Assembly (NCBI RefSeq): GCF_000423865.1
Contig: NZ_AUIU01000014.1
Span: forward strand, 62,001-126,000
Reading direction: 5' to 3'
From: Thermodesulfovibrio thiophilus DSM 17215
GTDB taxonomy: Bacteria > Nitrospirota > Thermodesulfovibrionia > Thermodesulfovibrionales > Thermodesulfovibrionaceae
Length of the DNA stretch: 64,000 bases
Part shown: piece after piece, positions 14,734-17,151 of the stretch
Position numbering within the stretch: position 1 is the first letter of the stretch
How the letters are laid out: each line of letters starts with the position of its first letter
Notes under the pieces: generated by a model
Told to the model about the DNA's origin: nothing
The model's database searches: none
The model's input: the letters and a program-made list of their open reading frames with translations, nothing else
Translations under genes and position numbers: made by a program

Positions 14734-14746
14734 TTTTAAAAAATGT

Positions 14747-14764
14747 TGTTACAATTCGGTAACA
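14747..14764 (+). promoter_or_regulatory. Palindromic operator 1, candidate enhancer-binding site
   Basis: TGTTAC-N6-GTAACA is a perfect 6+6 inverted repeat about 108 bases upstream of the predicted sigma-54 start. A near copy lies 32 bases further on. Position and pairing fit an upstream activating sequence for a sigma-54 activator. Confidence 0.55.
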
Positions 14765-14778
14765 CAATTTAAAAAAAA

Positions 14779-14796
14779 TGTTAAGATATGGTTACA
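14779..14796 (+). promoter_or_regulatory. Palindromic operator 2, candidate enhancer-binding site
   Basis: TGTTAA-N6-GTTACA has the same arm length and spacer as operator 1, with its centre 32 bases (three helical turns) downstream, so both would lie on the same face of the DNA. It is about 76 bases upstream of the predicted start. Confidence 0.55.
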
Positions 14797-14837
14797 ATTA
14801 AACAGTAAAATTATTTATAAACTCAATTTTTAGAATA

Positions 14838-14853: not shown

Positions 14854-14880
14854 GTTCTTTTTATAGGATTATTTTCTTAA

Positions 14881-14885
14881 AGGAG
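14881..14885. repeat. IS110 junction copy of AGGAG (right end of element)
   Basis: AGGAG is shared by both element-chromosome junctions (the other copy is at 16326-16330). It contains the AG (CT on the transposase strand) that fits the core dinucleotide kept on both sides after IS110 recombination. Because the five bases are shared, the exact crossover point is ambiguous within them. Confidence 0.7.
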
Positions 14886-14906
14886 TCAACTATCAGAAAA
14901 TAGGTG

Positions 14907-16109
14907 TTAAACATGAGCCACCTCTATACTATGACAAGAAGAATGAAATTCAGGACTAAACGAAACACCCTTTCTGCAGAGGGCATGGATAACTCTTATG
15001 AGTTTATTAAGGACTGCTATGATAGCTTTCTTGAAACTTCCAAACTGCTTTTTTTTACGAAGAAAGTATTCCCTGAAGTAAGGGTTCCATTTCACAACAC
15101 CTACAGTCATCTGAAAGAGGATATTCCTCAAATAAGCGCTACCCTGTTTGCATATGCTCATCCTGGCAGTGTACTTACCAGATTGTTTTACAACTGGATC
15201 TGTGCCTGCATACTTTATAATAGACTTAGCATTTGGAAATATTTTTATGTCTCTTACTTCAGCCAGAAACAGTCCTGCAAGCTTCTCAGAGATGCCTTTT
15301 ATGGAAGAAATCAGTTTCAACTGATCATTATCTGTTTTTTGTATTTCATACATAAGCATCTGTTCAAGTTTTTCTATTCTTGGCTCCAGGAAGAAGAGTT
15401 TTTCTATGTAAAGGACAAGAGATTGTGCATAGTAGGGATCTTCAATGCCAATAGAAGTTTTTGCAGTACTGATGAGTTCATCTGGAGCAAAGGAAACTTT
15501 TCTGCCTCTTACTATAGAGTTATTGATTATTTTAGCTATCTCATTTGGTTTAGCCTTACTAAGAGTCTTAGCACATGGGTATTTAAGGAGAATATGAAGG
15601 AAGGTGTGGGAGTAAATATTAAAGGATTTTTCAGCCTCAGGGAAAAGGACACTGAGGGAGTATTTAATCTGAGTTTTGGCTTCAGCGAGTTCTTTTTTAA
15701 GTTTCTGGATAAGTCTTGCAAGACTTCTAAGATTAGACTCATCAGGAGAGGATGTAAGGAATTGAGGGTTAGAGATGGCAAAGAGGGCGATAATTTTAGC
15801 ATCTTTTTTGTCACACTTAGAGGGGTTGTTTGCAGAGATGAACTCAAAGAATCTGTGAGTTATTTTAGGATTGAGGATAAAAGTCTGGATACTGTTACTA
15901 AGAAGGAAGCAGTAAAGAGGGAGATGATATCTCCCAGAGGACTCCATTACTACAACAGGATTAGAGAGAGTGTTCAGAATACTGAGAAGTTGAGAGAATC
16001 CATCAGAGGACATAGGAAGCTGTCCAGAGTGAATGGTTTCAGCTTTTTCGTTAATGGCGCAGAAATGAAAGTCATCCTTAGAAATATCAATACCTACATA
16101 GTTTTGCAT
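14907..16109 (-). CDS. IS110-family transposase (DEDD recombinase)
   Basis: The 400-residue protein has an N-terminal RuvC-like domain with acidic residues D8 (GIDISKD), E56 (VMESSGRY), D100 and D103 (CDKKDAK). A central helical segment of about 130 residues is followed by the C-terminal Transposase_20 domain (SIKGISEKLAGLFLAEV, then KQSGKY...CKQGSAYLRN), in which S310 is the likely serine nucleophile. All catalytic positions are present, so it looks active. The ATG has GGAGG at 16117-16121. IS110 recombinases use an element-encoded bridge RNA to choose target and donor DNA. Confidence 0.93.
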   Translation of the reverse strand: MQNYVGIDISKDDFHFCAINEKAETIHSGQLPMSSDGFSQLLSILNTLSNPVVVMESSGRYHLPLYCFLLSNSIQTFILNPKITHRFFEFISANNPSKCDKKDAKIIALFAISNPQFLTSSPDESNLRSLARLIQKLKKELAEAKTQIKYSLSVLFPEAEKSFNIYSHTFLHILLKYPCAKTLSKAKPNEIAKIINNSIVRGRKVSFAPDELISTAKTSIGIEDPYYAQSLVLYIEKLFFLEPRIEKLEQMLMYEIQKTDNDQLKLISSIKGISEKLAGLFLAEVRDIKIFPNAKSIIKYAGTDPVVKQSGKYTARMSICKQGSAYLRNILFQMTVGVVKWNPYFREYFLRKKKQFGSFKKAIIAVLNKLIRVIHALCRKGVSFSPEFHSSCHSIEVAHV

Positions 16110-16140
16110 GTTGCTACCTCCTTAAAAGGTATTGAAAAGT

Positions 16141-16298
16141 TGTCCCTCACAGCATCCTCCCCTGTAGCAGGGGCTTTTGTAGCCCAACCAACTTATTGGA
16201 AGTTGAGGGACAGAGGGACATACTCCTTTGGAGGCTCACAGGCCTATAAACAATGGAGTCCTTATCCCTCTTTATTTTATAAAACTCATATCTCATTG
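16141..16298 (-). ncRNA. Candidate IS110 bridge RNA
   Basis: On the transposase strand two abutting stem-loops precede the gene. Loop 1 is closed by AGAGGGA/TCCCTCT (16265-16271 with 16212-16218), has an inner ACTCC/GGAGT stem (16255-16259 with 16222-16226) and a small AGGC/GCCT hairpin. Loop 2 is closed by a perfect 9-bp stem TGTCCCTCA/TGAGGGACA (16204-16212 with 16141-16149) and contains three small hairpins. Loop 1 holds segments matching the target DNA and loop 2 segments matching the element ends, as in IS621-type bridge RNAs. The 5' end is set by a predicted promoter and is uncertain by about ten bases. Confidence 0.7.
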
Positions 16299-16306
16299 AG
16301 AGATAT
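16288..16306 (-). other. Stem-loop near the bridge RNA 5' end
   Basis: ATATCTC and GAGATAT form a perfect 7-bp inverted repeat with a five-base loop. It overlaps the predicted -10 box, so it may be either a 5' stem-loop of the RNA (if transcription starts earlier than predicted) or a DNA element. Confidence 0.5.
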
Positions 16307-16325
16307 TTTAAACTAAATTTATTGC

Positions 16326-16330
16326 AGGAG
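16326..16330. repeat. IS110 junction copy of AGGAG (left end of element)
   Basis: This is the second copy of the junction pentamer. Together with GCC that follows, it still supplies a Shine-Dalgarno sequence (GGAGG) for the gene at 16339, so insertion kept the ribosome-binding site. Confidence 0.7.
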
Positions 16331-16338
16331 GCCAATCT

Positions 16339-17151
16339 ATGAAAAGAAGAGATGCTTTAAAAATTTTTGGTGGTATGTTAGGTGGTAGTTTACTTTTAAC
16401 AGGTAGTAGCTGGATAGCTGGTAATTTGAATGCTTCACAAACAAACAATATCCCTCCTCTACCCTGGAATTACAAATCTCTTGATTCTAAAAAAGTAGCT
16501 GAAAGAGCTTATTCAGGCTTTTACAAAGGCAGATGTTGCTATGGAGCATTTGACGGCATTATTGGATGCCTTCAAGATGAAGTTGGATTCCCATTTACAG
16601 GAATTCCAACAGAATTATTTGTATTTGGTAGAAGTGGAATAGCAGAAACTGGATCAACATGTGGAGCTTTGATTGGAGCATCTGCTGCTATTTTCCTTCT
16701 AACAGGTGGAATAGATAAGGAAAAACAGGACAGAGCATATAAGCTCATTCAGGATTTATTCCGTTTCTATGAACAGGAAGCACTCCCTAAATACATTCCA
16801 GAAAAACCGAAACTAAATGCTGAAATCAAAGCAACAGTAGCTACCTCACCTATATGTCATATCTCAGTTTCAAGATGGTGTGCACAGACTAAATTTAAAG
16901 CAGCATCAAAAGAAAGAGACGAAAGATGTGCAAGAATTACAGCAGATTGTGCGCTTTATGCTATTAAATTATTAGAAGCTGAATACAAAGGCACCTTCAA
17001 AGGAGCTTATCCTCTTAAAGCCCAAACGAAAACATGCATGAACTGCCATGAGAAAAAAGATGCTCTTAACAATACAAAAGGAAACATGGAATGTGGTACA
17101 TGTCATTTTGATGGAAGAATTAACAAAGTTACAAAACATCCTCCATATTAA
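16339..17151 (+). CDS. Split-Soret-type dihaem cytochrome c, Tat-exported
   Basis: The 270-residue protein starts with a twin-arginine signal (KRRDALKIF plus hydrophobic stretch). The N-terminal part is a C_GCAxxG_C_C-type domain (CCYGAFDG, GSTCGALIGASAA, SPICHISVSRWC) and the C-terminus has two haem c sites, CMNCH and CGTCH. This matches split-Soret cytochrome c known from Desulfovibrio, a periplasmic electron carrier whose role is unsettled. The GGAGG Shine-Dalgarno sequence is seven bases upstream, but the IS110 element immediately before it separates the gene from its sigma-54 promoter. Confidence 0.85.
   Translation: MKRRDALKIFGGMLGGSLLLTGSSWIAGNLNASQTNNIPPLPWNYKSLDSKKVAERAYSGFYKGRCCYGAFDGIIGCLQDEVGFPFTGIPTELFVFGRSGIAETGSTCGALIGASAAIFLLTGGIDKEKQDRAYKLIQDLFRFYEQEALPKYIPEKPKLNAEIKATVATSPICHISVSRWCAQTKFKAASKERDERCARITADCALYAIKLLEAEYKGTFKGAYPLKAQTKTCMNCHEKKDALNNTKGNMECGTCHFDGRINKVTKHPPY

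Follow-up and report, generated by a model that had tools for sequence, protein, structure and literature searches.

The 64,000-nucleotide (nt) stretch of Thermodesulfovibrio thiophilus DSM 17215 analyzed here (the window; NZ_AUIU01000014.1, positions 62,001 to 126,000) contains an insertion sequence of the IS110 group, which sits between the promoter region of a host gene and the gene itself (Table 1). Its ends could be fixed from a 68% relative that is present as 13 near-identical copies in genome G276 (G and L numbers are our labels for genomes and loci): the termini, CT/CCTGC...GTTGA/CT, are common to these copies and the window element, and the flanks differ, diverging immediately beyond the identical termini. 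The boundary is placed after CT (or CTC) because two of the G276 copies have CTCTTT, not CTCCTT, at the right junction; the shared termini of all 14 elements define a scarless insertion at the core dinucleotide. The empty site is present in a congener (G015, locus L046), where the orthologue of the host gene, 86% identical and free of any insertion, has an intact leader, TTTAAAGGAGG, ahead of its start.

The recombinase combines the DEDD RuvC-like domain and the Tnp domain with conserved serine that are typical of the IS110 group, and the left noncoding end is, as in that group, the longer one (221 nt vs 23 nt on the right). D8, E56, D100 and D103 are invariant in five aligned proteins, and S310 aligns with the serine at chain position 243 of PDB entry 8wt6, which would be S241 if that construct carries two extra residues. 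The only PDB matches of the recombinase are IS621 and ISCro4; a phmmer comparison with IS621 gives E=1.1e-10, with good alignment limited to about 150 C-terminal residues, in keeping with the proposal in a preliminary description of this DNA that the lineage is distinct from IS621.

Table 1. Features of the IS110-group element and its insertion site in the window
Feature	Position	Strand	Remarks
Whole IS110-group element	14884..16330	-	CT core at each end (16330-16329, 14885-14884); 1445 bp with one core counted
DEDD recombinase, 400 amino acids (aa)	14907..16109	-	PF01548 E=3.8e-30, PF02371 E=1e-21
Predicted bridge RNA, structured part	16122..16278	-	Model R1 match and 22-sequence alignment
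5' hairpin, 7 bp, ATATCTCTCAATGAGATAT	16288..16306	-	Sequence and minimum free energy fold
First loop, predicted target-binding	16212..16271	-	Stems, guides, consensus structure
Second loop, predicted donor-binding	16141..16212	-	Stems, consensus structure
Right target guide AAAGGAG, Shine-Dalgarno-like word	16223..16229	-	Complementary to right target CTCCTTT
Segment at left-guide position, CAUUGUUU	16248..16255	-	1/8 match to own left target
Predicted left donor guide AGUUGGUU	16186..16193	-	Element's right end is AGTTGACT
Target sequence GATTGGCCTCCTTTAAG; donor sequence TAGTTGACTCCTGCAA			
-35-like TTGACT at right end	14884..14889	-	Faces TAAAAT (16310-16305, minus strand) over joined ends, 18-nt spacer
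Opposite-strand frame, 470 aa, first ATG 14913	14904..16316	+	Codon-aligned with recombinase gene; TAA 7 nt before rebuilt Shine-Dalgarno sequence
Rebuilt Shine-Dalgarno sequence GCAGGAGG for host gene	16324..16331	+	Element's left end supplies all except last G
AAAGGAG, remnant of host Shine-Dalgarno sequence at other junction	14879..14885	+	
Host gene downstream of insertion	16339..17151	+	Tat-like leader (by eye), C_GCAxxG_C_C domain; PF09719 E=7.7e-11

The left end, on the recombinase strand, had been described as two abutting stem-loops preceded by a hairpin. Its 7-bp closing stem (16265-16271/16212-16218, AGAGGGA/TCCCTCT), its 9-bp closing stem (16204-16212/16141-16149, TGTCCCTCA/TGAGGGACA) and the 7-bp hairpin are all present in that form, the two closing stems sharing base 16212, and all three are held by the minimum free energy fold of 16110-16330 (minus strand). 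The energy of this fold, -69.4 kcal/mol, compares with -54.4 +/- 4.4 in 200 shuffles (z=-3.42), none of which was as good. The preliminary description had also suggested a covariance-model search, for which we used a model (R1) built from 15 distant relatives, none of them belonging to the window's subclade. R1 matches 16122-16277 with 85.4 bits (E=1.4e-20), the next match in the 64 kb reaching 6.6 bits; in the element's own genome it finds another IS110 copy (139.9 bits; part of the model), the window copy and then nothing above 18.4 bits. R1 recovers each of the seven loci searched in the subclade, at 73.7-96.2 bits, and scores at most 17.2 bits in 20 background stretches of G276. Rfam gave no match at gathering score in the 64 kb, the one chance-level match (E=0.65) lying outside the left end.

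Alignment of 22 left ends (16137-16278 and counterparts) with MAFFT yields an RNAalifold consensus of 24 pairs, 17 of them with two-sided changes. Of the cells of this structure 97.5% are paired, vs 83.6% in shuffles, and the covariation score is 0.545 vs 0.272; no shuffle among 500 was as good in paired cells and two-sided changes, and sliding the structure along the alignment lowers pairing to 31-55%. A measure of further pair types did not rise above the shuffles (309/500 as high). The two closing stems, for which compensatory changes had been proposed as a test, are well kept in the seven elements of the window's subclade, where stem 1 retains 6-7 of its 7 pairs and stem 2 retains 5-9 of 9. 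Over all 22 elements no more than 68.2% and 69.0% of their cells pair; in the comparative consensus the first loop is closed by GGAC/GUCC (columns 20-23/64-67), with 98.9% of cells paired. In the window the 5' hairpin is clear; it has a similarly placed counterpart of different sequence in some relatives (e.g. L002, L004, L019, L112) and is weak or absent in others, such as G288, G261 and L114. Judged from its sequence, the left end is best read as encoding a conserved two-loop bridge RNA, new in sequence and known in kind, and the suggested IS621-type layout, in which the first loop faces the target and the second matches the element's own end, gains partial support from the guides.

We placed the guides after the IS621 geometry (PMC11208160, PMC11208158), with the left guide before and the right guide after the small hairpin of loop 1. 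The test covers 18 of the 22 aligned elements, G261 (first loop of other length) and L024, L020 and L021 (ends not located) being left out; right targets are missing for G273, L005, L019, L023 and one of six G270 copies, and L022, whose right end is CG and not CT, is of doubtful assignment. In the window, 5/6 positions of the right guide beyond the core match the right target. Over the 18 elements the right-target match is 59.4, vs 38.2 +/- 4.9 for permuted guides, a value that none of 20,000 permutations reaches. We call an element Shine-Dalgarno (SD)-type if its right guide ends in GGAG, or, for G261, in GAG together with an SD location, and non-SD if another word stands there; the match is significant in the 13 SD-type elements (p=0.00025) and has p=0.21 in the five others. 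The word itself varies (AAAGGAG in the window, UUAAGGAG in G276, GAGAGGAG in G270), and so do the targets: the right target of the G270 copy L096, CTCCTCTCG, is exactly as predicted from its guide, and the G267 guide GUGGAG faces CTCCAC in 3/4 copies. On the left, the match has p=0.0003 over the 18 elements and p=0.15 and p=0.22 within the SD-type and other groups; the signal stems from 12 elements outside the window's subclade, where a single register gives 5.6/8 vs 4.3 (p=0.0013), with examples as close as 8/8 (G267 copy L105) and 7/8 (L005, L116).

This covariation of guide and target bears on whether the structure could instead be an untranslated leader that controls expression of the recombinase and is no guide RNA at all. 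It does lie directly upstream of the recombinase gene, and transposase-regulating small RNAs are reported for ISPpu9 (PMC8450116); the guide segments nevertheless track targets from element to element, including in the non-SD element L115, whose right guide CUACAG and target CTGTAG (GACUACAG and CTGTAGTC) match at 6/6 positions beyond the core. We regard the leader as a barely credible account of the region.

Two further readings of the guides were set aside. A left guide formed by the GGCCT of the small hairpin in loop 1 (AUAGGCCU vs ATTGGCCT in the window) was discarded since that hairpin is itself conserved and covarying (columns 37-40/47-50); its register also fails in G270. A GC/GU change in the right donor guide that seemed to covary with the donor end was dropped because the same columns pair within the RNA (96-122). 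The predicted left donor guide pairs with the element's right end through two wobbles, a match that is consistent but uninformative, both sequences being nearly invariant. At the joined ends, TTGACT is present in 10/10 junctions examined, with the best -10 match scoring 3-5/6 at a spacer of 15-19 nt.

The right target directs attention to where these elements lie. CAT is found a few bases from the core in nearly all left flanks, which places the element in an SD sequence, facing against the gene. We counted a copy as SD-sited if a start-codon complement lay 4-12 nt from the core and was followed by at least 60 open codons, and applied this to 29 copies of the window's subclade (13 in G276, six each in G288 and G270, and one each in G271, G261, G273 and the window), leaving uncounted L047 (in another genome, at the site that L097 occupies), the fragments L110, L111, L003 and L048-L050, and the four G267 copies, in three of which the right flank is a repeated palindrome. 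By this rule 27 of the 29 are SD-sited, every one at ATG, and only L088 and L089 are not; the spacing is 6-9 nt in 26/27. A 400-kb sample of G276 holds 503 CTCCTT sites, of which 74 are SD sites by the same rule (53 at ATG), 392 lie inside open reading frames (ORFs; at least 100 codons) off SD positions and 37 are noncoding; measured against all of them, the 11/13 G276 copies found at SD sites give p=1e-9. The invariable ATG likewise differs from the background, in which 21/74 SD sites belong to GTG or TTG starts (p=7e-4). The 3' ends of 16S rRNA in G276, G271, G270, G267 and G288 are GGATCACCTCCTTT (ACCTCCTTT), so that the target strand has the sequence of the ribosome's anti-SD tail and the guide has that of the SD. 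Targeting through the right half is clear, and for the start codon both readings stand, namely that it too is read by the guide or that it is picked by selection.

The insertion splits the host SD and yet rebuilds it. Because the element's left end is CTCCTGC, the junction by the start codon again reads GCAGGAGG, restoring AGGAGG ahead of the host gene, which thereby keeps its SD. The G267 copies L105-L108 have mixed flanks: CAT precedes the core in one left flank, the right flank of another copy is CTCCTTTTT, and the remaining flanks carry the repeated palindrome ACAGGCAAGATTGCCTGTG, which looks like recombination between copies, perhaps with inversion.

The strand opposite the recombinase gene is itself constrained. 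In the window its frame ends at TAA (16314-16316), which is followed by the rebuilt SD (16324-16331) and the host ATG (16339). Among 41 Leu and 41 Ser codons the recombinase gene has not one TTA, CTA or TCA, the codons that would place a stop in this frame; 28.3 are expected from host usage (P=8.5e-16), estimated from 33 window ORFs, none of which has zero, and 21.4 from the gene's own use of A-ending codons. Across 13 SD-type rows the antisense-stop codons number 0, 0, 1, 2, 0, 0, 3, 1, 0, 3, 0, 0 and 1, or 11 seen vs 239.6 expected; the eight non-SD rows have 18, 16, 20, 19, 10, 14, 15 and 13 (125 seen vs 175.8 expected), and the seen/expected ratios of the two sets do not overlap. When 33 recombinases are placed in a tree, L002 and L019, which are SD-type, form a pair nested among non-SD elements (support 99/97, inside 100/99 and 95/98). 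Hence, shifts in guide type and in frame state coincided on more than one occasion, and the association does not come from a single split. Openness extends into the left end: the recombinase-aligned frame contains just one stop, located 3-17 nt short of the tip, in 10/14 SD-type rows (the window, G276, G271, two G270 copies, G288, G261, G267, L004 and L112), that of L004 overlapping the SD (TAGGAGG), while L005 and L019 have two, L002 five and L114 seven.

Could this be a by-product of codon bias or foreign origin? The own-bias model does overestimate stops in the non-SD relatives too (the 125 against 175.8 given above), but A-ending codons are used normally elsewhere in the window gene (0.30 in fourfold and 0.64 in two-fold families) and non-SD relatives of similar composition do use TTA, CTA and TCA, which makes this explanation very improbable. 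A second alternative is a functional protein from the opposite frame, made only if the element lies downstream of a host promoter. A frame of 457-480 aa is present in 6/10 elements examined, five of which share the position of an ATG near the right end, and a precedent exists in hed, an ORF on the complementary strand of IS900 (PMC8141618). However, the opposite codons begin at fourfold sites of the recombinase gene, and these are near saturation between most elements and drift freely: 19/52 are the same between the window and G270 (17.5 expected) and 28/62 between the window and G276 (21.8 expected), the exception being the closest pair, G276 and G271, with 40/63 (23.8 expected). The sequence of an opposite protein is thus not kept, and openness, the avoidance of stops, is what is kept; we therefore consider a working protein unlikely. 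Two other sets of loci touch on the same strand. The second IS110 element of this genome, L002 (G000:C17:55849-57018), is 37% identical, has its own predicted bridge RNA and an SD-type right guide, and its opposite frame of 420 aa stops 157 nt short of the left end. The single copies L031, L029 and L030 (G062, G089, G093) of a distant IS110 lineage (27%) have an open opposite strand with 0-1 stops vs 10-13 expected; L031 is closely followed by GAGGGGGATACATG, and the lineage is possibly another SD-targeting one.

These features go beyond the preliminary description in three respects, the targeting of the SD, its reconstruction and the constraint on the opposite-strand frame, and they can be drawn together in a model. 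Upon excision, the joined ends would form a promoter from the right-end TTGACT and the left-end -10 box, from which the RNA would be made. The recombinase would bind this RNA, whose second loop would hold the junction of the element's ends and whose first loop would hold the target, and strands would be exchanged at the CT core, a chemistry taken by analogy from IS621. The right guide AAAGGAG, or a near relative of it, would pair with the CTCCTT opposite a gene's SD and bring about a head-on landing just upstream of the ATG. Thereafter, a transcript from the host promoter would cross 1.4 kb of the element in antisense, where the stop-free opposite frame may allow ribosomes to trail RNA polymerase along the element and pass translation on to the host gene, thereby averting premature transcription termination. 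We hold it to be quite probable that the element encodes a bridge RNA and homes to SD sequences. That the open frame serves to keep the host transcript translated is a suggestion on which we are evenly divided. The broadest form of the model, an RNA-guided transposon class that uses the SD as a reusable safe harbor, with a guide that mimics the SD, an end that supplies a new SD and a whole element, guide-RNA gene included, selected for openness of its opposite strand, which would let the invaded gene be expressed by read-through translation and re-initiation, would have about an even chance of holding.

Several observations weigh against this model. The segment at the left-guide position of the window matches only 1/8 target bases, and in the window's six-element subclade none of the registers from -4 to +4 beats permuted guides, which leaves half of the usual targeting without an explanation in these elements. 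The guide registers were chosen after some matches had been inspected, for which the shift control is a partial answer. Against gene-sparing CTCCTT sites only (53/111), the 11/13 G276 copies at SD sites are a moderate excess (p=0.01). The recombinase genes of G271, G270, G267, L004, L002 and L114 do carry antisense stops, breaking the frame once in G271, twice in G270 (L092) and three times in G267, whose right flank in 3/4 copies is the repeated palindrome and not an SD. Other lineages with unproven targets are also open, namely L041 (G155; 0 vs 10.6) and L026 (G043; 0 vs 6.5).

Part of this evidence would suit survivorship, in which CTCC(T) is targeted anywhere and only insertions that leave the gene working, with its SD rebuilt, are kept. 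Most CTCCTT sites in the G276 sample (392/503) are inside ORFs, 53 of the other 111 are SD sites at ATG, and no match is seen for the left guide of this subclade. Against it stand the excess over gene-sparing sites, the exclusive use of ATG, the spacing of 6-9 nt in 26/27 SD insertions, and the CAU at the left-guide position, which is kept in 6/6 subclade members of the guide test. We treat survivorship as a possible, though the less favored, source of the SD preference, and retain homing by the guide as the preferred one.

As to its distribution, a scan of viral contigs found no relative of the element; plasmid records hold only relatives below 60% identity (best among the matches listed about 30%), and a search of genome contigs gave one relative, 60% identical, in a record titled Thermodesulfobacterium thermophilum. 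The 16S gene of the window's genome was not found in the assembly. Thermophily of the lineage is at most suggested, by the 60% relative and by a 16S G+C of 0.60-0.64 in five relative genomes, and a heat-adapted recombinase, as put forward in the preliminary description, is a conjecture. L047 and L097, from two genomes of which one is titled Thermodesulfobacterium thermophilum, are apparently one truncated IS110 copy at an identical site and look like an old shared insertion. Upstream of the insertion in the window, a palindromic stretch (14745-14800, GTTACAATTCGGTAAC), with a similar one upstream of the L046 orthologue, is probably the operator of the interrupted gene.

If the model holds, it explains at the level of the guide why some IS110 elements insert between the SD and the start codon, and points to how a transposon may spread in front of genes, as in G276 with its 13 copies, and leave them unsilenced. 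Stop avoidance offers a strong, inexpensive and testable mark of selection acting on a mobile element's antisense strand; elements that have apparently lost left-guide matching are a natural test of how much of a target must pair, and a clade from probable thermophiles would be a source of bridge recombinases for tool builders.

With IS621 (PMC11208160, PMC11208158), the element shares the DEDD/Tnp recombinase, the long left end, a 5' hairpin with two loops, the CT core, putative -35 and -10 boxes that end joining would bring together, and a right guide that, with the next U, is complementary to the core and to the right target, as well as to the A that precedes the donor core. It differs in its distant protein similarity, mainly confined to the C-terminal domain, in having the SD as target, in a left guide without a match in its subclade and in the constrained opposite strand. 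The seekRNAs of ISEc21 and IS1111 elements (PMC11187229) likewise come from a noncoding region, match both target strands over short stretches and are naturally retargeted via guide change; their targets are others, and a term search of that source found no discussion of the SD or IS900. In the openly accessible literature on SD or start-site targeting and IS110 or bridge RNA, subscription journals and preprints aside, no description of an SD-like guide or of stop avoidance was identifiable in the parts available. The closest precedent is an IS110-family element, IS900 of Mycobacterium avium subsp. paratuberculosis. IS900 inserts between the SD and the start codon, the position that 27/29 copies occupy here. 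Its reported target motif, CATGNNNNNNTCTCCTT, is a start-codon complement plus an SD complement at the modal spacing found here, 8 nt, and it too has a long complementary-strand ORF, hed (PMC8141618), the counterpart here being the 470-aa frame of the window element. IS900, compared by description only, comes from other bacteria, and the passages seen of that source name no guide RNA; unlike in that account, the window element displays statistical stop avoidance in an A+T-rich genome.
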